NCBI GenBank assembly: GCA_905182715.1
Contig: CAJJCP010000012.1
Location: forward strand, 1 to 57,253
Direction: 5' to 3'
DNA: 57,253 bases
Source of the DNA: an uncultured Candidatus Poseidoniales archaeon
Lineage (GTDB): Archaea > Thermoplasmatota > Poseidoniia > Poseidoniales > Poseidoniaceae
The notes beneath the pieces were generated by a model. That model was not told the origin of the DNA and searched no databases. It saw only the letters and a program-made list of their open reading frames with translations. Made by a program: the position numbers and the translations under genes. This document shows positions 11,410-28,375 of this stretch, in pieces; positions within the stretch are counted from its first letter, which is position 1; each line of letters begins with the position of its first letter.

Positions 11410-11499
11410 TCGCAATACTGCAAGGCCTTTTTGGCTATCGTGCTTAAGAACTAGAAAGCAAAGCAATTAAAGTGCAACAGAGTTTGGAGAAGACTAGTG

Positions 11500-14400
11500 A
11501 TGTTGATGATTCCCAAGAACCACCACCTCAAGAGCCGCGCCCTAAGCATGTTCCTTGTCATGCTGATGTTACTTTCGACCACTGTTGCAATCGCTTCTAC
11601 TGCCAGCGCATCCATGGCTCGTTCGTATACAACTAACCGTGACCCGCATGACGTGGCAATTGGCGATTTCAACTGCGATGGTTTCAACGATTTGGCTATG
11701 GCGACTGACGGAACCCACACCATCACTATTCTTTGGAACGATGGTAACGGTGATTTCAGCGAACGCCAAGACATCTGGGTTTCAAAGAACACCAGCCGTA
11801 ACGCTGAATGGGACGAGTTTTCAAATGTTCAATTCATCGAAGTTGGCGAGTTCACTGGCGATCAAGCAACAGACATTGTCATTTACCAGCGAAACAACCC
11901 CTTCAAGACCGATGATAACGGTGCACCTGCCGGCGAACCTGGTAACGTCACCATCATTGAAAACGGTGGTTGCAATGAAAAATCCTGGAGCATAGGCGCT
12001 CGATTCACTCACTTTTATGCTTGGGACTTAGCTGTGGGCGATGCAAACCAAGATGGTAACGACGATGTTTTCGTTCTCGATTTGCTTGCTGACTTGACAA
12101 CACAACGTGTTGTCACTTACCGTGGACCAATCACGTCCAACACTCAAGGGACAATCACTTCACTTGGTTCTTCTCAACAAAACACCTACCGGAATCTGGA
12201 AGTTGGAGACTGGGGAGAAACCGAAACTGGAGGTCTTTCTGGGACTTGTACTGACGATGATATTTGGCTACAACGTGGAGAAGGACTCGATTACAGCACA
12301 GGTCAAGTGACAAACCCTGGTAATGACGACAACATGACCATCATCGAATTCAGCTGCTTAACCAACACCTATCCAGCAACCTACACGTTCAGTGCAACCA
12401 ACCCTCCACCGAACTCGAATGTCGTTAACATGAACACTCCTACATCCGAAAATTTCGATATAGGCGACATGGATGGCGATGGCGTTATTGACGTCATGGT
12501 ACTCAACGATGCTAATTTGGAGAATGTTACGTACGTGACCTCTTCTGCTGTTGGAACTTGGTCTACACCTACACTTGCATACTTCGGCCCTTACATCTCG
12601 TGGCAGGTTGCTGTTACCGATTTGAACGGTGACCAAGAACCTGATTTCATTAACCCGACAATTGCTTATCAGCAAAACACGACCGATTCTGCTGGCGGTT
12701 CAACTTCTTCATTCTTCTTGAATTTCCCAACTACGGTCCAAGTGACTCTTTCAGACGGTAATGGCGGCCATTTGAGCCCGTTGTCATATTCTGCAGGTCG
12801 TCGACCGAATGTTGTTGATGTTGGCCAACTTGCAGGTTCAAGCAATTCTGCTGAGGACTTAGTGGTCGGACATGCAAATTGGCGATTCTCTGGCTGGAGA
12901 GACAATTTCGGCTGGGAAGGACAATACGACACCATCTCTGTCATTGAAATGGACAGCAAAGATTTGTCAGTCTCTTCAATTGAAATTTCTCCTGTTGACA
13001 AATTCTACGGCGTTGTCGGCGAAGGAACTCGTGACATCAACGTCACCGTTACCAACACCGGAATGGATGTTCTCAACGGTCAACAAGCGACCCTCAACGT
13101 CGAGTTGAAGGTTGTCGACCAAGCGAACTCATCCAACACTTCCGTTTACGAAATGGATTGGGATGCCCCAGAGAATAAGGCATCCTGTAGTGGATGTACG
13201 TGGTCCTACGAAGAATATGTTGATCAATCAACATACTGGCACGAAGAAACCAATCACTCCACGGGCGCAACAGATGGAAATAATGATCCAAACGTTTCAG
13301 CGAATTACCTCAACCCAACTGATTTCATGTGGGCAGGTTACTCTGATACCAACTCCAGTGGAGACACTTGGACTGGATACGGACGAAACTGGGACGATGC
13401 AATGGTTCTCGAAGACGTCGATTTGACCGGCTCAGATCGTGCTTTCATGAGTCTCGAACTGTTCCAACATCTCGGACACGGTGTGTTGGGAAGTTTGGAT
13501 GCGAGCGGACAATACCTTGCTGGAGATGTCTGGGATGACATCGCAATGATTGAAATCGGCAGTGTTGAAACTGGCTGGTCAACTCTGTCTTGCCCTCAAA
13601 CAGCTCAACTCGCTAATGCATGTGCATCTGGTGAATCAATGTGGGGCGGATTTGACATGGACAGAATGTACAAACAATCCATCGGTGGCGCACCTGAAGG
13701 AATTTATTACTACGGAGTCTATTCATTCGGAACCTACTATGGTTGGAATAACTTCACTGAAGAAGGCATTGGCGCCTTCGACCTCAGCCCTTGGGCTGGT
13801 GAGACCGTCGATATTCGATTCCGTCTCCGAACTGGTTTTGAAGGTTCGATTTCTGATGATAATGAAAGTCTATGGACAGGCCGAGACGGATATGCAGTTG
13901 ACAACCTGAGTATTTGGAAGCAGACGACTGCTTTCGAGGCAAACCCACAGGTTCAACAGACAAGCATTAATCTCAACAACCTTGGTCCTGGGCAAGAATA
14001 TACTTCTTCGATTACAGCTGATTTGCTGAATGATACGACCTATCGTATATCCGCAACACTTTCCGGCAATTCATGGGACGAACAATCTCAAAACGATGAA
14101 ATCATTGGCTATATTACGCCATTTAATCTCTATGATCCAATGGTTGAGGACCTCGAGTACTTCAATCCTGGTGGATTGTACGCAGAAGGTGTCTTTGACA
14201 TTGAAGTTGCTACCAATAACTGGGGTAACACAGAAGTCGACTTTGACATCAAAGCAACTGTTTACTCTGCAAACCCTTCCGATATCTATTGCGGTACTCC
14301 GAGTGCCTTGTGTCAAGAAACCTTTGAAGGTGGCGCAACAGGATACCGATATGAAGAAAGCCAGAACCCTCAAGGTGCAATTTATGGCGAATCAACTTGT

Positions 14401-17400
14401 CAAGAAAAGATTTTTAACAACTATGCCTATTGGTTCGGACATCCTTGCGATACGGGTGCAAACGGGTACGGTGAGGCTTGGGCCAATGAAACACTTACAA
14501 TCCCTGATGTTGATTTGACTTCTATGAGCGGTGACTTCGTTTCACTTAACTTCGAATACTATGCAGATACATTCTATGGAATCGATTCGGATGGTTCCAG
14601 CATTGTCGATGTCAATGACTATGCTGCAATGACTCTGGATATCCTACGTGATGGTGCAACTTACAGCAGCGTTGTCATGGGACAATGGAACGATTACAAT
14701 GAAGACGGCACTTGCCAAGAAGATGAAAACGGTGATAACATCGTCAATGCTTCTGAACCAATCGACTTCGCAGAAATCGATTACATCGGTGATGATGCCT
14801 CAAGAGACGGTACAGGTGGTAACTACAACGTGTTCTTCAACACCAATGAACTTGTTAAAACGACAAGTATTGACTTGACGCACTTGTATATGCTCAACAC
14901 CTCGGATGCGAACAGTGGAAACTGGGCCTTTGAGTGCACATCTCTCGCAGGTTCAACGGTCGATATCAACTTCGAATTCCAATCAGATGACGATGGGCGA
15001 AACGGTATCAATGATGGTTTCAAGGGTGTTGCTTTCAACAACATCACGCTTCAAGAATTCACTTTCATTGAAGATAATTCCTACACCATTTCCCGTACCA
15101 ATGTCGATGCTGACCAAAGTTCAACTGACTTTGTAGCGAGCCATGAGTTCTTTGCAGGCGTCTATAAAATTGATGTTGAAACAATCTTTGACAACACAAC
15201 CGTTGGTAAATCTTGGTTCAATGATAACGAATTGTCAGTCTCGAACAACAGAGAGACTGTGATTTTCAATGTTGAATCCGTTGATATCACTCTTTATGCA
15301 CCAGACAAACTGAACTGTTTGGATGACCAAACTTTGGAATGTGTAATGCCAATTGACAGTGCTTTGAATCACAATTGGGAATTTGAGGCGGTGAATGGAG
15401 TTCTTGCAGGTGATTATGTCTTTAACATGAACATCTATGACATGACGACTGGTTCAGTAGCTCATTCCACAACTGCAGGACCGTCTATAAACTTGGACGC
15501 AAATGCTCGTTATGATGTGATTTTCACACCATGGAACGGCTGGATGGACGGGCACAAATACAACGTCAGTTTCGATGCAGAACTTGCAAACGGCAATCCG
15601 TCGGGTAACGTTCGATATTTCCATGCAACCTTTGCTGATCACATCGACGTGGCTATTCTTTCTGATTCATCAACCCGAACTTCAACAATTAAAGAAGACC
15701 TCAACATTCTCGGAATGACCTATACTCAATTCGAAATTAAAGATTGGGAGACGTACTTTTTGAGTGGTTGGTTTACTCATTACGACAAGATTATTTTGCC
15801 TTGGCAAACTGATGTTGCTGCGAAAGATGAGAATGCGAACGGCAAAGGATACTATGAAAAGTTGGGAATAAGTGCGAACCAGAACACTTTGGAAGGTTTC
15901 ATGTTTGCTGGTGGTACTGTTCAAGCCCACCTCGGCCCTCAAGGAACCCAAGTATATGGTGAGGAAACATCCCGTAGACTCCCTCTTGACTTGTTCATCA
16001 AAGAAAAGAACACTGAAGAAACTGCCATCACCTATTCGAATACCGATTTCGCAGACCCCTATCATCCATTGATGGAAAATGTAGATTTGGCAGCATTCCA
16101 AGGATTTGACGCTTCTTCAACAGTTGCTCTTGCCGTGATGGATACTAGTAAACAAAGCGTGAGTACAGTTCCAACCGTTTGTGGTGGAGACAGCGAATCG
16201 AAGAAAGATGGTACTCTCCAACGAATCATTCGACAAGATGGAACGCTTGCTGACCAGAAAAATACAATTCTCGGTGTGTGCAGTTACCAATCTGGTGGAC
16301 TCATTGTTTCAACCATGGACGTTGCAACACATTCCGAACGTGCAGACAGTACGACTTTACCTCTTCTTGGAAACATGCTCAGCTACCAAGTTACACCTTA
16401 CCCAACTGGTTTCGGTGTTCTCGGTAACGGCCTTGACTTGGAAGTCAATGGAATCATACCAGATAATGACCCAAGTACCGGTGGATATTCCGAACTCTTC
16501 ATCAAGAGCAATGCTGAATTGACGTTCTCTTTCGTAACAGGAACGACTGAAGCCCTGGAGACTGATTGGATCATCGATGGTCCAACCTCTTGGACTGGCG
16601 CAACTATGGCAAGCGGAACCGACCACATCACTGACACAACTCCAATAGCGACGTTCTGTAAGGTTGACCTTGCTTCGGCAACCGGCTGCGCTCAAGGTGA
16701 ACAATGGGACATAACCCTCATTCTTCACGATGCAGCAGGACATTCCCGTGTGATTACCGTAACCGTTGAAACCAACGATGTAAAGGCTGATTCATTCCGA
16801 CCAACTGCCGATGCAGAAATCGATATGCGTGAAGGATATGCAGAACAAGTCGAGTTCATCGGAACCAACACGATTCTTGGAAGCGAATGGGACGTTAATC
16901 GAATTATTCTCGATGACAGTGGTGCAGTAACCATCTACTTTGATGCGAGTAACTCCTCTGACGAGGACTCACTTGACGGTAGTGGAATTGAACGCTATGA
17001 ATGGAGAGTTCTTTTCGATGCTCCGTACGGTGACGATGACTTCGATATTACCGGTCATTCCTTTACCCAGACGGCTGCGAGCGACGGATTGTTTGCCTAC
17101 ACGTTCAGTAATGCAACAGTGAAGGGCGATGACCCAACTGCTCCAAGCACGCAGATTCGAATCGAACTCGTTGTTTATGATGGTGCAGATAAATATTCTG
17201 AAACCCATAAAATGTATTTCGAGATTGTACCTGCTGATTTCGGTGACGAAATTCCAGTGTTCGACTATTCACTTGCTGTCGACCAGGACTGCCCTCAAGC
17301 ACCTTGTCGAATTGAAGACGAGACCATTACCCTCATCGGTACGATCTTGGCTGGAAACGAAGGTGGAGAAGGCGACGTAACAGTTGAAATTGCTTTCTCC

Positions 17401-18198
17401 TCTGAAACTTTGAATGCTTCTGGACCTGATAAGTTCAAAGCAACAAACGCGGATGTTTATCGAAAGGCAGTCAACCTCGGTGATTCTGATACGTTCTCAC
17501 TTACTCTTTCCCTTGATGGCATCTATTCGAATACATCTCTTATCCAGACAATTTACATCAAGGTCTACGAAGGAGATGAATTCAATCAAAGGAATGCTGT
17601 CTACAAGCAGATTGACATTTCATTGCCTGCATGTCAGGGTGTTGAAGCCAATCTCGATGCTGAAGCAGCAGGCGGAGAATGGATTCTCGATGAAGACGGT
17701 AACTGTGCATGGTCTGGAGAATGGACCTTTGAAAATGGTGAATGGAAAGCCCCTCAAAGCACGACTGGAGAAGACTCCACTGAAAGTGCAATTGACGGCT
17801 TGCTTGTTCCTGCTCTGATTGGAATCGTATTGGTTGTCGTTGTTCTCTTTACGCTTCTGTTCATCCGGAAGGGTTCTGAAGACGATACCAAAGACTTCTC
17901 AGTTGGTGCCTCTGGATTCGGTGGCGTTATGGATCAAACTGAACAATACGTTCAGCAATTAATCGCTCAAGGCTACCCTGAAGAAACTGCTCGTGCCTAT
18001 GCCCAACAATATGCCGAGCAGGCAGGAGCAGCAGCCCCAGCGGCAGCAGCACCAGTTGCAGCCGCCGCAGCACCAGCGATGGATAATGCGGTTTACCAGC
18101 AATACTACCAGCAATTTGTTTCACAGGGCTATGATGCGGAAACCGCAGCAACCTATGCACAACAATATGCGTTACAGTATGCTCAAAGTCAACAGTGA
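11500..18198 (+). CDS. Giant membrane-anchored surface protein with FG-GAP-like repeats
   Basis: This is a 2,232-residue protein with ATG at 11500 preceded by GGAG. A signal peptide occupies about residues 8-40. The next ~320 residues hold FG-GAP/VCBS-like calcium-loop repeats such as AIGDFNCDGFNDLAM, AVGDANQDGNDDVFV and DIGDMDGDGVIDVMV. The long middle has beta-sandwich segments with disulfide-type cysteines and at least one CARDB/Ig-like stretch (DINVTVTNTGMDVLNG). A transmembrane helix lies at about residues 2100-2122 (LLVPALIGIVLVVVVLFTLL), followed by a cytoplasmic tail. The tail holds two copies of a ~25-residue unit separated by an Ala/Pro linker. It is likely a surface adhesin or a polymer-binding protein; the substrate is not visible. 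Confidence 0.85.
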   Translation: MLMIPKNHHLKSRALSMFLVMLMLLSTTVAIASTASASMARSYTTNRDPHDVAIGDFNCDGFNDLAMATDGTHTITILWNDGNGDFSERQDIWVSKNTSRNAEWDEFSNVQFIEVGEFTGDQATDIVIYQRNNPFKTDDNGAPAGEPGNVTIIENGGCNEKSWSIGARFTHFYAWDLAVGDANQDGNDDVFVLDLLADLTTQRVVTYRGPITSNTQGTITSLGSSQQNTYRNLEVGDWGETETGGLSGTCTDDDIWLQRGEGLDYSTGQVTNPGNDDNMTIIEFSCLTNTYPATYTFSATNPPPNSNVVNMNTPTSENFDIGDMDGDGVIDVMVLNDANLENVTYVTSSAVGTWSTPTLAYFGPYISWQVAVTDLNGDQEPDFINPTIAYQQNTTDSAGGSTSSFFLNFPTTVQVTLSDGNGGHLSPLSYSAGRRPNVVDVGQLAGSSNSAEDLVVGHANWRFSGWRDNFGWEGQYDTISVIEMDSKDLSVSSIEISPVDKFYGVVGEGTRDINVTVTNTGMDVLNGQQATLNVELKVVDQANSSNTSVYEMDWDAPENKASCSGCTWSYEEYVDQSTYWHEETNHSTGATDGNNDPNVSANYLNPTDFMWAGYSDTNSSGDTWTGYGRNWDDAMVLEDVDLTGSDRAFMSLELFQHLGHGVLGSLDASGQYLAGDVWDDIAMIEIGSVETGWSTLSCPQTAQLANACASGESMWGGFDMDRMYKQSIGGAPEGIYYYGVYSFGTYYGWNNFTEEGIGAFDLSPWAGETVDIRFRLRTGFEGSISDDNESLWTGRDGYAVDNLSIWKQTTAFEANPQVQQTSINLNNLGPGQEYTSSITADLLNDTTYRISATLSGNSWDEQSQNDEIIGYITPFNLYDPMVEDLEYFNPGGLYAEGVFDIEVATNNWGNTEVDFDIKATVYSANPSDIYCGTPSALCQETFEGGATGYRYEESQNPQGAIYGESTCQEKIFNNYAYWFGHPCDTGANGYGEAWANETLTIPDVDLTSMSGDFVSLNFEYYADTFYGIDSDGSSIVDVNDYAAMTLDILRDGATYSSVVMGQWNDYNEDGTCQEDENGDNIVNASEPIDFAEIDYIGDDASRDGTGGNYNVFFNTNELVKTTSIDLTHLYMLNTSDANSGNWAFECTSLAGSTVDINFEFQSDDDGRNGINDGFKGVAFNNITLQEFTFIEDNSYTISRTNVDADQSSTDFVASHEFFAGVYKIDVETIFDNTTVGKSWFNDNELSVSNNRETVIFNVESVDITLYAPDKLNCLDDQTLECVMPIDSALNHNWEFEAVNGVLAGDYVFNMNIYDMTTGSVAHSTTAGPSINLDANARYDVIFTPWNGWMDGHKYNVSFDAELANGNPSGNVRYFHATFADHIDVAILSDSSTRTSTIKEDLNILGMTYTQFEIKDWETYFLSGWFTHYDKIILPWQTDVAAKDENANGKGYYEKLGISANQNTLEGFMFAGGTVQAHLGPQGTQVYGEETSRRLPLDLFIKEKNTEETAITYSNTDFADPYHPLMENVDLAAFQGFDASSTVALAVMDTSKQSVSTVPTVCGGDSESKKDGTLQRIIRQDGTLADQKNTILGVCSYQSGGLIVSTMDVATHSERADSTTLPLLGNMLSYQVTPYPTGFGVLGNGLDLEVNGIIPDNDPSTGGYSELFIKSNAELTFSFVTGTTEALETDWIIDGPTSWTGATMASGTDHITDTTPIATFCKVDLASATGCAQGEQWDITLILHDAAGHSRVITVTVETNDVKADSFRPTADAEIDMREGYAEQVEFIGTNTILGSEWDVNRIILDDSGAVTIYFDASNSSDEDSLDGSGIERYEWRVLFDAPYGDDDFDITGHSFTQTAASDGLFAYTFSNATVKGDDPTAPSTQIRIELVVYDGADKYSETHKMYFEIVPADFGDEIPVFDYSLAVDQDCPQAPCRIEDETITLIGTILAGNEGGEGDVTVEIAFSSETLNASGPDKFKATNADVYRKAVNLGDSDTFSLTLSLDGIYSNTSLIQTIYIKVYEGDEFNQRNAVYKQIDISLPACQGVEANLDAEAAGGEWILDEDGNCAWSGEWTFENGEWKAPQSTTGEDSTESAIDGLLVPALIGIVLVVVVLFTLLFIRKGSEDDTKDFSVGASGFGGVMDQTEQYVQQLIAQGYPEETARAYAQQYAEQAGAAAPAAAAPVAAAAAPAMDNAVYQQYYQQFVSQGYDAETAATYAQQYALQYAQSQQ
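17944..18177 (+). repeat. Two-copy tail repeat, UBA-like half-motif
   Basis: Inside the cytoplasmic tail of the giant surface protein, QQLIAQGYPEETARAYAQQY (coding from about 17947) and QQFVSQGYDAETAATYAQQY (coding from about 18109) are clearly the same unit. They are separated by an Ala/Pro-rich linker. The pattern (hydrophobic-x-x-x-G-Y-x-x-E-x-A) resembles the first helix and loop of UBA-type folds, which is an inference from pattern only. Confidence 0.6.
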
Positions 18199-18641: not shown

Positions 18642-19676
18642 TCATTCTTCTTCAAAGGCTTCGAAACTCTCTTCACCTTCTTCGTCAATATGTCCCACTT
18701 CATCCAAGTGTGATTCGAAATCAGGGAAACTTGGTTTCCAGTTCATTGGTAGAGCAGTGTCGGAATCGATGATTTTCAACATCCGTTCTTGCCATGCTTT
18801 TGGTTTTCTTTGCATGATAAACATGTAAAGAGGAGAAGTTCGAATATCGGAATGGATAATCGAATAACCTGTGTTTGCCTCGAAATTCATTGCACGAAGC
18901 AAGTTAAACGCTGGCCGATTGATATTGTGGAACATACGCTTTGCAGTCCGCATTCCAAACAAAACGGTACCAAAAATTACCAAACTGGTCATGCAAAACG
19001 CGCCCCATCCCCGGCCTGCTATTTGATTCGAAAAATAGACGACAATCATCAAGACAGGTACGGTGGTTATGAGGAAAAGAAAACTTTCTGATACCGGGCC
19101 TTTACCCATCTTAAGTTCAATTGCGCCCCAACCGTTGTGATGCTTTTCCCAGGGCTTGAAATGTTCAGAAGTTTGCAGGTTGGCAGCAGCAATTACTTGG
19201 CTCCGTAATTGATGGATTTTCGCAATTTGTGTTGGTCCACCGTCTAAATTATCTTCAATGATTGTATCAAGGCGATACTTTGCTTCAAGATAATGACCCA
19301 TGTCAGCGAGTAATGCTGCTTGTTCTACCAAGGGCGTCACCTCTTTGGGAAGTTGGTGACGAAGGTCTTGCCACCATTGCAAGCCTTCGCTAAGCAATCC
19401 TAACTCATCTGTGAGTAATCGACCACCAAGCATCCACATTGCGGTACGGTTCGGATCCAGAGCAATGATTTTTCGAACTGCAGCTAAAGATTTGGCTGCT
19501 TGAAGTAATGACGGCTTTTCTCCTTTTTGTGGAAGAGCCGTTTCAGCACACAATTGCCAAGCATCAACATGTTCGGGATCAATTTGAACTGCTTTGAAGG
19601 CTTCTTCATATGCAGTTTCGACATCGCCTTCATCATAGGCTTCTACAGCGTTAAGATAGTGATGTTCAGCACCCAT
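18642..19676 (-). CDS. TPR-repeat membrane protein
   Basis: This protein of about 344 residues has TPR-like helical pairs in its first ~160 residues (YLNAVEAYDEGDVETAYEEA, AVQIDPEHVDAWQL, GHYLEAKYRLDTII). Two adjacent transmembrane helices follow at about residues 200-250. A cytoplasmic C-terminal region ends in a strongly acidic tail (DEEGEESFEAFEEE). The ATG at 19676 is preceded by GGGGA; a TTG at 19694 would overlap the stop of the upstream Gar1-like gene. This tight spacing suggests an operon with that gene. TPRs indicate a protein-protein interaction role, with no partner identifiable. Confidence 0.75.
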   Translation of the reverse strand: MGAEHHYLNAVEAYDEGDVETAYEEAFKAVQIDPEHVDAWQLCAETALPQKGEKPSLLQAAKSLAAVRKIIALDPNRTAMWMLGGRLLTDELGLLSEGLQWWQDLRHQLPKEVTPLVEQAALLADMGHYLEAKYRLDTIIEDNLDGGPTQIAKIHQLRSQVIAAANLQTSEHFKPWEKHHNGWGAIELKMGKGPVSESFLFLITTVPVLMIVVYFSNQIAGRGWGAFCMTSLVIFGTVLFGMRTAKRMFHNINRPAFNLLRAMNFEANTGYSIIHSDIRTSPLYMFIMQRKPKAWQERMLKIIDSDTALPMNWKPSFPDFESHLDEVGHIDEEGEESFEAFEEE

Positions 19677-19690
19677 CGCTTCATCCCCGT

Positions 19691-21160
19691 TCAATCATCT
19701 CGGTCTGGGTTGATGAGTGGCTTTGGTGGGCGGTTATGTGCATGCCCTGGTCCATTGCCTTGTGATTTTCTAAAGTTTCGAGGTTCTCTTGACTTGCGTT
19801 CAGGCGCTCTACCTTGATCGTATGAGCCACTGTTTTGATAGCCGCCACCGTCACCTCTTCGGTCTCGTCCATCTCGACGAGGCGGTCGTCCACCTTCGTG
19901 CCGAGGAGGTCGCGCCCCATCATCTCGTTGTGGTGGTCGCCCACCGTCATCGCGTCGAGGTGCTCGAGAACGGTCATCCCGTTGTGGTGGTCTTCCGCCA
20001 TCATCGCGTCGAGGTGCTCTTCGGTCATCGCGTTGTGGTGGTCTTCCGCCGCTATCTCGGCGAGGTGGTCGTCCACCATCGTCTCGACGTTGGCTACGGC
20101 CACCGCCCCCACCACTGCCGCCTGGTCGAGGTGCTTGGCAGCGATTACATTCTTGGCGGAATGCAAAGTTTGAATTTTGACATTTTGGACAATCCCAATC
20201 GTTATCGGTGTATACTTTTGTTTCTCGACCGCGATCATTTCCGCCACGGCGGTCATTTCCACCGTATCGGTCGTTTCCGCCACGTCGATCGTTTCCACCA
20301 CTTCGCGGAAGTCCACATGAATTACATTCAGTACGGAATGCGAAATTATTATTTCGACATTTTGGACAATCCCAATCTCCGCCGTTGCGGTTGTTTTGAC
20401 CTCGGTCGTTTCTCTCAAAGCGTCCACCTTGACGGTCTCTGCTCTGGTATCCTTGGCTTCCACCTCTGCGGTCGTCTTGTCGAGGACCGCGTCCTCCACC
20501 AGCACCACGGGCTTCTCCACAGCGGTTGCATTCAGTTCGGAATGCGAAATTATTATTCTGACATTTTGGACAATCCCAATCTCCGCCGTTGCGGTTGTTG
20601 TCTTGCCCACGGTCGTTTCTCTCAAAGCGTCCACCTTGTCGGTCTCTGCTTTGATATCCTTGGTTTCCACCTCTACGGTCGTCTTGTCGAGGACCGCGTC
20701 CTCCGCCAGCGCCTCGAGCCTCTCCACAGCGATTGCATTCAGTTCTGAATGCGAAATTATTATTCTGACATTTTGGACAATCCCAATCTCCGCCGTTGCG
20801 GTTGTTGTCTTGCCCACGGTCGTTTCGTTCAAAGCGTCCACCTTGTCGGTCTTGACTTTGGTATCCTCGGTCGTTACCTCTTTGGCCACGATCCGAATCA
20901 CGTTCTCGGCGTTCTTCACGTTGCTTTTTTGCACGAATTCCTACATTGATACCGACCAGTGAGTCGAGATCGAGTTTCCGGTCAATATGTGCTACGTGAG
21001 CAAGTGGAGAGTTTGTATTTCCAAGGACTGCATCGACTTTACCGATGTAAATACCAGTTTCGGCATTGATGATGATGGACTCGAGGGCGGGAGAAGATCC
21101 AGTAAACGAAACTAGAAATCCTCCTTCATGACTTTTTGACTCAATTACACCCGCGAACAT
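19691..21160 (-). CDS. Gar1-like H/ACA RNP protein with RGG and four RanBP2-type zinc fingers
   Basis: Residues 1-80 resemble Gar1, the H/ACA ribonucleoprotein subunit that assists pseudouridylation: a small beta-barrel with GIYIGKVDAVLGNTNSPLAHV at about 36-56. The remaining 400 residues are an Arg/Gly-rich disordered tail. It carries four zinc fingers of the RanBP2 form, each W-D-C-P-K-C then C-N-x-C: C128/131/142/145, C197/200/211/214, C265/268/279/282 and C324/327/338/341. After them come many G-G-R-P-P-x-R-D-D units. Ordinary archaeal Gar1 is about 75-100 residues and lacks this tail. RNA binding is well supported. The Gar1 assignment of the barrel rests on motif similarity. Confidence 0.8.
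   Translation of the reverse strand: MFAGVIESKSHEGGFLVSFTGSSPALESIIINAETGIYIGKVDAVLGNTNSPLAHVAHIDRKLDLDSLVGINVGIRAKKQREERRERDSDRGQRGNDRGYQSQDRQGGRFERNDRGQDNNRNGGDWDCPKCQNNNFAFRTECNRCGEARGAGGGRGPRQDDRRGGNQGYQSRDRQGGRFERNDRGQDNNRNGGDWDCPKCQNNNFAFRTECNRCGEARGAGGGRGPRQDDRRGGSQGYQSRDRQGGRFERNDRGQNNRNGGDWDCPKCRNNNFAFRTECNSCGLPRSGGNDRRGGNDRYGGNDRRGGNDRGRETKVYTDNDWDCPKCQNSNFAFRQECNRCQAPRPGGSGGGGGRSQRRDDGGRPPRRDSGGRPPQRDDRRAPRRDDGGRPPQRDDRSRAPRRDDGGRPPQRDDGARPPRHEGGRPPRRDGRDRRGDGGGYQNSGSYDQGRAPERKSREPRNFRKSQGNGPGHAHNRPPKPLINPDRDD
20250..20875 (-). repeat. Tandem ~207-bp repeats coding RGG/zinc-finger units
   Basis: Three tandem units in the Gar1-like gene start at residues 97, 166 and 235 (20872, 20665 and 20458 on the minus strand). 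The first two are 69 codons and the third 68 codons to the matching finger. They are nearly identical in DNA as well as in protein, which indicates recent unequal expansion. A fourth, more diverged finger follows at a 59-codon interval. Confidence 0.85.
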
Positions 21161-21216: not shown

Positions 21217-23238
21217 TCACTCTTTTCTGGCTCTTCCTGCAAAGGCAGCACCGAGTAAAACAATGCTCAACGTTGCCATCATAGAGATAGCAGGGAGTCC
21301 TTCTTCTTCGACCGTAATCGTACTGTCATCGCCACTCGTATCACCGTTATCGTTGGCATATGGGTCTGGAACATATACGGCAAGCGTCGTTATTGTTCCG
21401 GATTCATCAGTAGCCGTCAAGACAATGTCATAAGCGGTTACAGGAGGGTTTTGCGAAGAGCATGAAACGATGTTGACATCAACTTCCCAAGCACTTCCAA
21501 CCCGGAAGAAATTGTTTGTTGTATAGCCGCACAGGCGAAGCGAGAGTGAAACCTCTTCACCATCGGGGTCTAACACATCACCTTGTAGTGTAAAGGTAAG
21601 ACCGGTTGCTTCCCAAGTTGCATTTTCTCCATCAAGATTCTTCTTAACAGTGATCAGTGGTGGCAAACTTGCTTTTTCAAGGTCAAAGTCGAGCATAAAA
21701 TCAAGGGTTAACATGGTTGAACTTTCAGCTTGTCCCATGACCATGATTGCACCTGGAGATAATCCATTAAGTGGTAACGAAATTGTTGAAGCATCTGAAG
21801 CGAGTGTAACACTACGCATTTGTCCCATCGTATTCATTTGGTGAGCGTGTGCAGAAATTTCTAATTCATTGACCAATCCAGTTGGTGTGATGGTAAATTC
21901 GATACTGTCACCAGTTGCAGAAAGAAGGCCACTCGAAGTAAAGACCTCGCCAAAAGTCCAGTTTCTGGAATCAATTGACATTGCACCGAACGGGTCAGCA
22001 ACATAGCATTCTGCATCCGAAGACTGTGCCTGAGAGTTTGCTGTTGAGACCATCATGTCCCCGTCTCCATCGAGAGAAGCAGCCCAACCAGTTTCAGCGA
22101 AACTACATTCCAGTCCCCATCCACTCTCGTCGGTTGCCCACATCTCAGTTCTTTCACCAGCAACGGCCAGCACCTCATTCATTGAATTCAATCCAAGTAC
22201 CGGGATGACAGTTCCATCTTCTGGAGCATTTGAGCTCCATTCAGGGGCTTCATTCGTCTCGGGAGCCATGGTTGAGAAATCAATAAACAACTGTCGTAGA
22301 ATCGAAGATTCAGAGGCTGCATAGGTAATGACTTGGTTCACTCGCAGACGGCCATCCGGAAGGTAAACTGATTCGGGGCCACTCAATGCTGTGTTTTCAG
22401 AAACATTCACTGAACCGTCATTATTTGTGATTGTATCTTGTATTGAATAATTAATCATTCGTAATCCTTGCTTAAGAGGGAAGTTGAGTTCGAGATGAGC
22501 ATAGGACATGTTGGTAATGTTCAATGCTAAAGTAAAATTAGAATCACCACTGTTCGGAAGTTTATCGAAACGAACGTTGTTCGATTCACCTTCCGCTAAG
22601 AATAACTGAATTTGTAAGTCATCGGTAATTTCTACTGGCACTTCTTTACATCCATTTGCCGAACCAAGGTTCTGGCATGTGCGTTGTTCCGGATGGTTTG
22701 CTGGGACCAGATCTACTTCCTCTAATCCAATTCCATCTTCAACAAAAGACATGTTGTTCCAGTCGGGAGTGCCTCGATGAGGGATGCCTTCTCGAATACC
22801 GACTCGAGTGTCCATGACGCCGATACATTTCGGGCCAATTGCACGTACTGCGTCACGTTCATCAGTGCTAATGTATGAATTGTTTCCGCCAGAGAGTCCA
22901 TCAAATAATCCATCGAGATTTGCTCGAACGATTGCGGATTTACTCCCATTGACAAATGCGTCAGCATCCATTTCAGCCATTGCCCAATCATCGCCAACAT
23001 TGATGATAAAGTTCGCAAAATCGTAGTTGAACAGGTCTTCAAACTTCAAACCTTCACATTCTTCTTCGATAGCTAGAGTTTGTCGTCCATCCGCAGGTAA
23101 TTGCTCACTTGAGTCCAATGCAACTTGAGCTGTGAAAAGCGGTGAGCATCCCATCAGAATCATTAAGAAAATCAAACTCATTGCTGTTGAACTGCGCGAG
23201 AGGAGGTGTGTGAATCCATACTGGGTGTTTCCTGCCAT
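21217..23238 (-). CDS. Secreted protein with C-terminal sorting-like signal
   Basis: This 673-residue protein has an N-terminal hydrophobic signal (about residues 18-40). That segment contains LMGC, which could be a lipobox at C31. The body is beta-rich, with paired cysteines (RTCQNLGSANGCKEV, GLECSFAE, AECYVADPF) and Ig-like segments near the C-terminus. The end is tripartite: an acidic stretch (TVEEE), then GLPAISMMATLSIVLLGAAF as a membrane segment, then the basic AGRARKE. This arrangement resembles archaeal surface-sorting tails of the PGF-CTERM type, but the exact motif differs. It has no identified enzymatic domain. It lies downstream of the ABC-2 pair on the same strand. Confidence 0.75.
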   Translation of the reverse strand: MAGNTQYGFTHLLSRSSTAMSLIFLMILMGCSPLFTAQVALDSSEQLPADGRQTLAIEEECEGLKFEDLFNYDFANFIINVGDDWAMAEMDADAFVNGSKSAIVRANLDGLFDGLSGGNNSYISTDERDAVRAIGPKCIGVMDTRVGIREGIPHRGTPDWNNMSFVEDGIGLEEVDLVPANHPEQRTCQNLGSANGCKEVPVEITDDLQIQLFLAEGESNNVRFDKLPNSGDSNFTLALNITNMSYAHLELNFPLKQGLRMINYSIQDTITNNDGSVNVSENTALSGPESVYLPDGRLRVNQVITYAASESSILRQLFIDFSTMAPETNEAPEWSSNAPEDGTVIPVLGLNSMNEVLAVAGERTEMWATDESGWGLECSFAETGWAASLDGDGDMMVSTANSQAQSSDAECYVADPFGAMSIDSRNWTFGEVFTSSGLLSATGDSIEFTITPTGLVNELEISAHAHQMNTMGQMRSVTLASDASTISLPLNGLSPGAIMVMGQAESSTMLTLDFMLDFDLEKASLPPLITVKKNLDGENATWEATGLTFTLQGDVLDPDGEEVSLSLRLCGYTTNNFFRVGSAWEVDVNIVSCSSQNPPVTAYDIVLTATDESGTITTLAVYVPDPYANDNGDTSGDDSTITVEEEGLPAISMMATLSIVLLGAAFAGRARKE

Positions 23239-26260: not shown

Positions 26261-28375
26261 ATGAAAACAAGAACGCTAAAAACCACATTGCTCGTATTTT
26301 TAATCGCCACTGCCTCCCTTGCAGGTTGTATCGGAAGTGAAGATGAAAAAGAAACTCCTGATTTAGAAGATTTTGTCATCGCATACAGTGTGAAAGACGA
26401 TTACACGAATGTCGATGAGAACCCTCAACGATTAGCCTCCTACTTGAGCGAAGAACTCAACATGGATGTTACACTTTACCCAATTGACTCCGAAGGCGCA
26501 GCTCTTGAAGCGCTTCGTTTCGGTAACGCAGACATGGCTTTCATGGATGGCGGTGCTGCTTGGGTCGGTTGGCAACAATACGGCTTAGAAGCTCTCGCAG
26601 CAGATCAGAAATCTGATGGAAGAGCATACTACAGCGCTCATGCAGTTGTCTTGAAAGACTCTGAAATGGCAGCAGCATACCTCGACGATGATCCAACAAC
26701 GGATCCATTCTCTCTACTTGCAGGTAAGACCTCGTGCCACACAGGATGGCTGAAATCCGCAGGAATGTTACTCCCAATGGGCTTCCTTATCGGAAATGGA
26801 TATGCCAATGTGATTGGCGACTCAGGTGATGTTGAATCACTCCGAGATACGATTACCAACTTCTTCAGCGAAGATGCGAGCATTCCTGATTCAGGAACTC
26901 CTTACTACTCCTACTCAGGAGCAGTCAAGTGTCTTACTGAAGGCGTTGGCGATGTCGCCTTTGCTAAGGATTCGACCGTAGCTTCATACTGTGGTAACGA
27001 CAACGCTACTGACAACCTCGATTGGTGTCTCCCTGAATCCGATTACATCTTGCTTCCTTCATATGGGAATGCTCCATCACACCCAGTGATGTATAATCCA
27101 GACTTTATGACTTCAGAAACAATTACGAAAGTGCAAAATGCTTTGGTCGCAATGAAAGATTCAACAGAAGGGGCTTCAATTCTTTCCGATGTTCTCAACA
27201 CACCAGCAATCTCTGCAACCAATGCACTTGAACATCTTGGATCATACGGAAATCTCATTGAAGATGTTCCAGGAATATCTGCATATTACAGCACAAAGTT
27301 CTCGATCAATGAGACCGTAGCTCCTACTGTCTCCAACATTCGAATCGCTTTTGAATTGAAGGACGATTATACCAATGCTGATGAAAACCCGCAAATCCTT
27401 GCTGATTACATCGCTGAACAAACCGGTGTAACCGTGACTTTGTACCCAGTCACATCTGAAGGCGCCATTATTGAAGCACTTCGCTTTGGTAACGTCGATA
27501 TCGCCTTTATGGATGGAGGAGCCGCTTGGGTTGGTTGGAAAGAATACGGTCTCGCCTCGATGGCTGCAGACCAGAAATCCGATGGACGGACCTATTACAA
27601 CGCTCATGCAGTCGTTTTGAATGGGTCCGATATTGCTGAGGCTTATCTCGATAATGATTCAACAACCGATCCATTTGCATTGATGGCAGGAAAGACTTCC
27701 TGTCATACTGGCTGGCTCAAATCAGCGGGTATGTTGCTGCCAATGGGTCACTTGATTTCCCAAGGCTATGCTCCAGTCGTTGGACCTCAGGATGATATTG
27801 AATCTCTTCGAGACACCATCCATGCTTTCTTTAACGAAAATGCAAGTATTCCTGATTCGGGAACTCCTTACTACTCCTACTCCGGAGCAGTCAAGTGTCT
27901 TACTGAAGGCGTTGGTGATGTAGCCTTTGCTAAGGATTCGACTGTTGCTTCATACTGTGGTCAGGATAACGCTTCGGACAATGAGGCTTGGTGTTTGCCA
28001 GAATCTGATTACATCTTGCTCCCTTCGTATGGTGCAGCACCTTCACATCCAGTGATGTATAATCCTGCTCAACTTGATGTTCAAACACGTACTGCAATTC
28101 TCAACGCATTGCTCTCTTTGAATGACGAAATGTATTTGGAAAATTACACTATGCAAGGACAAACCTTCACTGGATGCTACAATACGGTTTCGCACATGGT
28201 CGACAGTACCTCCCCACAAAACCAGTGTGGAGATCAAATCCTTGAGAATGTTCTCAACACTCCAGGATTAGTTGAAGCAAACACCCAAGACCATCTTGGA
28301 AGTTACAGTAGCCTCATCAGTGCGATTCCTGGAATCTCTGCTTACTTCGACACCAAGTTCGAAATTGCGGAATGA
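26261..28375 (+). CDS. PhnD-family substrate-binding lipoprotein with two tandem domains
   Basis: This 704-residue lipoprotein has a lipobox LAG-C23. Two successive PhnD-like periplasmic-binding domains follow, with a repeat period of 322 residues. Both contain KDDYTNxDENPQ, then ALRFGNxDxAFMDGGAAWVG, then GKTSCHTGWLKSAGMLLPMG, then SYCGxDNA and WCLPESDYILLPSYG. Paired cysteines are conserved between the copies. The genes for an ATPase and a permease follow, so it is the receptor of an importer. PhnD relatives bind phosphonate, phosphite or phosphate, but the promoter carries metal-repressor-like operators, so iron, manganese or another metal complex is a serious alternative. The duplicated receptor is unusual. 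Confidence 0.88.
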   Translation: MKTRTLKTTLLVFLIATASLAGCIGSEDEKETPDLEDFVIAYSVKDDYTNVDENPQRLASYLSEELNMDVTLYPIDSEGAALEALRFGNADMAFMDGGAAWVGWQQYGLEALAADQKSDGRAYYSAHAVVLKDSEMAAAYLDDDPTTDPFSLLAGKTSCHTGWLKSAGMLLPMGFLIGNGYANVIGDSGDVESLRDTITNFFSEDASIPDSGTPYYSYSGAVKCLTEGVGDVAFAKDSTVASYCGNDNATDNLDWCLPESDYILLPSYGNAPSHPVMYNPDFMTSETITKVQNALVAMKDSTEGASILSDVLNTPAISATNALEHLGSYGNLIEDVPGISAYYSTKFSINETVAPTVSNIRIAFELKDDYTNADENPQILADYIAEQTGVTVTLYPVTSEGAIIEALRFGNVDIAFMDGGAAWVGWKEYGLASMAADQKSDGRTYYNAHAVVLNGSDIAEAYLDNDSTTDPFALMAGKTSCHTGWLKSAGMLLPMGHLISQGYAPVVGPQDDIESLRDTIHAFFNENASIPDSGTPYYSYSGAVKCLTEGVGDVAFAKDSTVASYCGQDNASDNEAWCLPESDYILLPSYGAAPSHPVMYNPAQLDVQTRTAILNALLSLNDEMYLENYTMQGQTFTGCYNTVSHMVDSTSPQNQCGDQILENVLNTPGLVEANTQDHLGSYSSLISAIPGISAYFDTKFEIAE
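26393..28324 (+). repeat. Tandem domain duplication (966-bp period) in the PhnD-like gene
   Basis: Equivalent codons of the two domains are 966 bp apart; for example, the KDDYTN codons begin at 26393 and 27359. Most of the two copies has diverged in DNA, but 26882-26976 and 27848-27942 differ at only four of 95 bases, all at synonymous sites. Confidence 0.85.

Follow-up and report, generated by a model that had tools for sequence, protein, structure and literature searches.

Can an archaeal Gar1, a subunit of the H/ACA particle, carry zinc fingers of the type known from FUS and ZRANB2, and what might they do there? The question is raised by a reading frame in a 57,253-nucleotide stretch of DNA (hereafter the window) from an uncultured Poseidoniales archaeon, a member of a group of ocean archaea that is very abundant (PMC6461757, in excerpt). 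Passages of PMC8096250 describe archaeal Gar1 as a Cbf5-binding protein that has control of the thumb loop and of product release, and present arginine/glycine-rich Gar1 tails as specific to eukaryotes.

The gene (19691..21160, minus strand, as are all its parts given below) starts with ATG and codes for 489 amino acids. An earlier note, made from the letters of the window, had read it as a Gar1-like barrel followed by about 400 Arg/Gly-rich residues, and we have confirmed both the frame and the composition. Over the first 84 codons the comparison with a close orthologue (L088) gave 24 synonymous and three non-synonymous changes; judged by these codon changes, the gar1 frame is under selection at the protein level and the barrel under purifying selection. 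Two overlapping ORFs of 417 and 319 amino acids were taken to be shadows of gar1. An AlphaFold2 model of the whole protein (22 sequences, mean pLDDT 55.4, 288 of the 489 residues below 50) has a beads-on-a-string layout in which the barrel and four fingers are folded with confidence. The barrel occupies residues 1–81 (20918..21160) and is followed by a first disordered linker rich in R, G, D and N (residues 82–123, 20792..20917, pLDDT below 50).

Identity of the N-terminal barrel

The HMM check proposed in the earlier note came out in two parts. The barrel alone does match Pfam Gar1 (PF04410), with 15.5 bits and E 0.015, and this lies below the curated cut-off of 29.3 bits; the match to NCBIfam Gar1 (18.9 bits, E 0.0014) is likewise sub-threshold. 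Because of this the assignment to Gar1 required other tests, all of which were passed. All 28 barrel sequences match PF04410 (E up to 1; best 2.4e-4), and the competing Pfam matches among them are weak (a PEP-utilizer model in two, a CAF17 barrel in one). When the alignment of these barrels (28 of 35 distinct ones) was compared by hhalign with ordinary Gar1 of the phylum (25 of 29 distinct sequences), the result was 96.9%, with E 1.3e-10 and a score of 57.9 over 75 columns. With the columns reversed the figure fell to 0.5%, and among 100 shuffles of the columns none went above 7.1% (score 19.0).

Structure prediction, also suggested as a check, pointed the same way. Residues 1–88 were modelled with AlphaFold2 (43 sequences, pLDDT 89.9, pTM 0.77), and ranks 1 to 14 of a Foldseek search with this model were taken by H/ACA-complex entries or Naf1 Gar1-domain entries, the matched chains being presumed to be Gar1. 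The best was 2ey4_D, from the Pyrococcus Cbf5-Nop10-Gar1 complex (E 1.7e-3; TM 0.71 by query and 0.82 by target), and the search returned no structural match below E 0.001. A profile search of the PDB with the barrel gave four weak matches, an archaemetzincin first (E 0.21) and then three Gar1 chains (E 0.32–1.5); the match to archaemetzincin, an unrelated chain, starts in what appears to be an expression tag.

That the barrel is a RimM/PRC-like or F-ATPase-like domain and not Gar1 is hardly credible on these data. Such a reading can draw on the Pfam score below the cut-off, shared by all the matched genomes of the order, and on the F-ATPase and RimM barrels found further down the Foldseek list. 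It was rejected on that lower structural rank, and the first 14 matches and the 75 columns covered by the profile match speak against it. So does the behaviour of many ordinary Gar1 proteins. PF04410 at E up to 0.1 was matched in 179 of 292 genomes, 62 in the order and 117 outside (this and the 40-genome set used below include the genome of the window); the cut-off was exceeded in 0 of the 62 versus 42 of the 117, and with the other 75 genomes outside the order also below it, the cut-off discriminates poorly in this phylum.

We have also looked for the combination that the earlier note had named against itself, an unrelated barrel plus a separate standard gar1 in the genome, and found neither: in this genome, 73% complete, PF04410 at E up to 10 matched one place, with no second gar1. 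On its predicted structure, its profile and by exclusion, the barrel is a Gar1, as had been claimed.

Zinc fingers and RNA-contact residues

The tail contains four complete RanBP2-type fingers, a claim that PF00641 bears out with E 2e-32 and 110.5 bits for the whole protein. They lie at residues 124–151 (20708..20791), 193–220 (20501..20584), 261–288 (20297..20380) and 320–347 (20120..20203, 42.6 bits for this last one). The finger core W-x-C-x2-4-C-x3-N-x6-C thus appears in four copies, and chance was ruled out as an explanation, since 0 of 20,000 shuffled tails contained even one.

The GGU contacts of ZRANB2 are made by D4, N14, the stacking W17, R19, R20 and N24. FUS and EWS share these positions apart from R19, which is replaced by W with specificity unaffected, position 19 being R, W or K in the RNA-binding fingers that are named, and the fingers of RBM10 and ABI3, in which N14 and N24 are absent, tolerate any third base (all from passages of PMC6384913). 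With these position numbers placed on the archaeal fingers by reading of the spacing, D4, N14, an aromatic residue at 17, R20 and N24 are kept in all four fingers of the window (F17 in the first). In a set of 80 loci, all 177 fingers have D4, N14, N16, R20 and N24 plus an aromatic at 17 (F in 170, Y in 7); the pattern used fixes the W, the four C and the spacing, and a looser one also found 177. Position 19 is F in 133, W in 23 and R in 21. The window fingers, all four with F, do not have the R or W that marks the ssRNA-binding subgroup of RanBP2-type fingers at this position, and this aromatic residue might still stack.

The pattern holds widely, with exceptions. Among the 36 genomes of the order that were read for fingers, the window's genus contributes 53 fingers, every one with the same contact residues. 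The other of the two families contributes 17; these all have D4, N14, the aromatic 17 and N24, and in five of them K stands in place of R20. In further, broader loci D4, N14, the aromatic 17, R20 and N24 are all kept in 81 of 91 fingers; three of the other ten have K for R20 and seven lose both N14 and N24. As RBM10 and ABI3 also do without these two residues, the seven are perhaps not dead but reduced in selectivity. In these altered fingers N14 is changed to K or A and N24 to F; five come from one genus, g12 (L177, L179, L181, L184 and L218), and two from another, g13 (L207 and L208). Two genomes (G024 and G038) have one finger each in which the contact residues are lost.

By their residues the fingers are supported as belonging to the ssRNA-binding sort of FUS and ZRANB2, the form that had been recognized from the sequence at the start. 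Some RanBP2-type fingers are protein binders (Nup153 with Ran, the ubiquitin-binding fingers), so that fingers recruiting protein partners, not RNA, have to be considered. We find this improbable. The closest PDB sequence to finger 4 is a FUS finger (FUS chains come first, 6g99 with E 1e-7, and are followed by Nup153, matched as a whole chain, and by ZRANB2), and although Nup153 and RanBP2 are among the weaker matches, the Nup153 fingers that align to finger 4 are without the RNA-contact residues present in all 177 archaeal fingers.

The sequence around the fingers fits its description in part. The 401 residues after residue 88 are 20.4% R, 18.5% G, 11.7% D, 9.7% N, 7.5% P and 6.7% Q, so the tail is Arg/Gly-rich as stated. 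The term RGG tail is loose, with 4 RGG (and 16 RG) steps versus 30 DR or RD; R/G/D/N-rich describes it better. RG counts in the tails of relatives reach 38 (L110). Tandem Repeats Finder detected 2.7 copies of a 207-bp unit at 20321..20871 (91% matches), the unit being a finger plus its linker duplicated head to tail. Near the end lies the conserved motif FRKxxGxxxGHAHNRxPKPL (residues 463–482, 19715..19774), defined by the invariant columns of an alignment of 22 rows, with its H[AT]HN core present in 42 of 45 complete relatives. It occurs at one place in its own genome, within a tail predicted to be disordered, and a search of the PDB found no match to it. Such a conserved HAHN end suggests, from the alignment, that it marks a further contact.

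Fingered and finger-less Gar1 in the order

A search for the same architecture in other Poseidoniales, which the earlier note had called for, showed that it recurs across the order and in both of its families. The 80-locus set, kept from 114 confirmed stretches, carries the labels Poseidoniales, Poseidoniaceae, Poseidonia or Euryarchaeota/euryarchaeote, with the single exception of a bin labelled Rhodobiaceae (L154). Of these loci 45 were complete and could be tallied, the other 35 being cut off or holding N; there was one finger in 6, two in 16, three in 16 and four in 7, in proteins of 260–532 amino acids. In all 45 the frame is continuous from barrel to fingers, and fingers encoded by a separate gene beside gar1 were thus ruled out. 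Draft genomes can understate the number of fingers, as assemblies break inside gar1 at the finger repeats (L205 and L207–L211). Among 19 further stretches, barrel and finger were found together in 13, and the other six were finger pieces at contig ends, four of them with HAHN.

At least one finger pattern was present in 30 of the 36 genomes. Of the six others, four are complete relatives without fingers (G026, G030, G036 and G037), with 150–164 amino acids and tails of 64–78 residues that are 50–54% R plus G, and two are incomplete, one having an N gap (G004) and the other cut off inside an apparent finger start (G031). A genome from another genus of the window's family (G246) has a long tail with the C-terminal motif and no fingers. 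The existence of these finger-less relatives indicates that the core function does not depend on the fingers. Since fingers are found in both families, this distribution suggests that they arose at the base of the order and were later lost in some lineages.

Outside the order the fingers are nearly absent. PF00641 at E up to 1e-5 was matched in 57 of the 292 Thermoplasmatota genomes, 56 of them in Poseidoniales, and the remaining one (G043) has its match in a membrane-protein-like frame unrelated to Gar1. The 30 best-scoring Gar1 outside the order have 71–104 amino acids (starts chosen by script) and no finger, and among seven more none has a finger and two have basic tails (L166, L167), so that the statement that ordinary archaeal Gar1 is a short barrel was true of the phylum Gar1 that were read. 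Viral contigs were also scanned for relatives and none were found.

We have considered as well that such fingers might be widespread within these genomes. This was ruled out, since, in 40 genomes, the PF00641 places above the cut-off fall within the Gar1-like frame; the two exceptions are a piece at a contig edge that carries the gar1 C-terminal motif (G002:C28) and a gene interrupted by an N gap, with the fingers following on the same contig (G004). Two places below the cut-off (G001:C10 and G016:C16) are in other, long frames.

Could the tail be mostly neutral low-complexity sequence, generated by tandem duplication and adding non-specific positive charge and little else? The 207-bp repeats, the variable length, the complete relatives without fingers and the minority of degenerate fingers are what such an origin would leave behind. 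Against this, the linkers drift but hardly any change is seen in the contact residues or the C-terminal motif, and fingers are present in both families, so we regard a neutral tail as quite improbable.

A possible role in the H/ACA particle

The barrel gave a single match in each of 36 of the 40 genomes of the order (the window's own and 39 relatives), the misses being G008, G014, G023 and G039. Nop10 was detected in 38 of the 40 and Cbf5 also in 38, and the genome of the window has both. One genome of the order (G147) has two Gar1-like places, with fingers at both. In one genus (g9), G039 gave no match for Gar1, Nop10 or Cbf5; in the sister genome G302 Cbf5 was likewise unmatched, yet there is a Gar1 with fingers, so the co-loss test of H/ACA parts in this genus was mixed and was not used. 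The missing Cbf5 in these two may reflect bins that are incomplete, a Cbf5 that has diverged, or true loss. A search with Rfam found no H/ACA RNA within the window, and detected only a tRNA. As a separate observation, a second Cbf5 match at G246:C15:2893-3027, with one in-frame TAG, is far stronger than the other one in that genome (88.5 versus 50.2 bits), and is possibly a eukaryotic contaminant.

We propose that the protein is the sole Gar1 of the H/ACA particle of these archaea, docking on Cbf5 and carrying a multivalent tail of the FUS/ZRANB2 type that would grip single-stranded RNA, and we give this reading a probability of roughly 0.6. Docking on Cbf5, as in other archaea, is expected because of the Gar1 fold and because Cbf5 and Nop10 are both encoded. 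The tail, usually with one to four fingers strung on disordered arginine-rich linkers, would enable the particle itself to hold on, multivalently, to single-stranded RNA that contains G-G-U steps. The target would most likely be the (pre-)rRNA substrate or the guide RNA, kept near the catalytic core by several weak GGU contacts, and the tail may in this way tune the capture, retention or release of substrate.

Our view of what is gripped rests on analogy with the RGG domains of eukaryotic Gar1. Passages of PMC8096250 report that a reconstituted eukaryotic snR81 particle lacking these domains changes in pseudouridylation yield and turnover, with opposite effects of the removal for the two hairpins under multiple turnover, and give the authors' reading that the RGG domains touch the substrate RNA. 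The RG/RGG repeats of GAR1 of C. elegans are dispensable for nucleolar accumulation and contribute to sub-nucleolar phase separation (PMC9633708, in excerpt). Condensates, raised as a possibility in the earlier note, are no more than a guess. A bolder idea, that a FUS-like Gar1 tail evolved here independently of eukaryotes and lets H/ACA particles form a nucleolus-like condensate on nascent rRNA in a prokaryotic cell, with the conserved HAHN motif as one more docking site, strikes us as speculative and unlikely.

The protein might also have left the particle, to work on its own in the manner of FUS, as an RNA-binding or RNA-chaperone protein whose barrel is a relic or a dock for another partner. 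The tail has more than four times the size of the barrel, the number of fingers varies, and the GP of the usual GPV motif is lost in the barrels of the window's genus, all of which would suit a free protein. Yet this is the only Gar1-like gene found and Cbf5 and Nop10 persist, the barrel is under purifying selection, and relatives without fingers retain the barrel; we therefore consider that a departure from the particle is unlikely, and prefer a Gar1 still working with Cbf5.

Compared with other archaeal Gar1 (PF04410; NF009632; Pyrococcus furiosus Gar1 in 2hvy; the 2ey4 complex), the barrel fold is the same over almost its full length; also in common are the lack of any second copy found and a genome that encodes Cbf5 and Nop10. 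The difference is in size, 489 amino acids here versus 71–104 in the 30 best-scoring Gar1 outside the order, none of which has a finger. Eukaryotic GAR1 shares the barrel with an arginine/glycine-rich disordered extension, but the Poseidoniales tail has few RGG, many RD/DR, and zinc fingers in addition; RanBP2 fingers are not known to us from any eukaryotic GAR1. Here the extension lies at the C-terminus alone, whereas passages of PMC8096250 describe RGG domains at both termini of eukaryotic Gar1.

With FUS, EWS, TAF15 and ZRANB2 the archaeal fingers have in common the finger itself and the GGU-contact residues, and they differ in that the host is an H/ACA subunit, with one to four fingers and mostly F at position 19. 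FUS fingers also sit among R/G-rich disordered linkers, as they do in Poseidoniales Gar1. In open-licence PMC papers, Gar1, RanBP2 and archaea appeared together in a liver-cancer review only, judged by the portions of it available, and Gar1 and Poseidoniales together in none. Among the matches listed in broader literature searches there was no earlier report of the combination of Gar1 with RanBP2-type fingers. The parts are known; what these searches did not find described is their combination and its occurrence across the order. Taken at the level of sequence, the data point to an H/ACA particle in archaea that has a disordered tail and its own means of gripping single-stranded RNA, and would make FUS-type fingers part of the core machinery by which ocean archaea modify their rRNA. 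Genera with up to four fingers and genera with none provide a natural experiment on Gar1 tails in pseudouridylation.

The neighbourhood of gar1 is conserved, with homologues of both neighbours beside it in both families. In a set of 95 loci, many of which end soon after gar1 and at least five of which stem from a contig represented twice (the locus sets overlap), homologues of the upstream secreted protein were found in 93 and those of the downstream TPR-like protein in 63. The two neighbours in the window (18642..19694 and 21217..23238, both minus strand) match no Pfam family at E 0.001, and the downstream frame overlaps the end of gar1 by 4 bases. Elsewhere in the window, 11497..18198 (plus strand) codes for a protein of 2,233 amino acids with FG-GAP repeats, and 26261..28375 (plus strand) for one of 704 amino acids that matches Pfam Transferrin (139.7 bits, E 1.7e-40) and Phosphonate-bd (151.9 bits), and is by these matches a transferrin-like binding protein in an archaeon.
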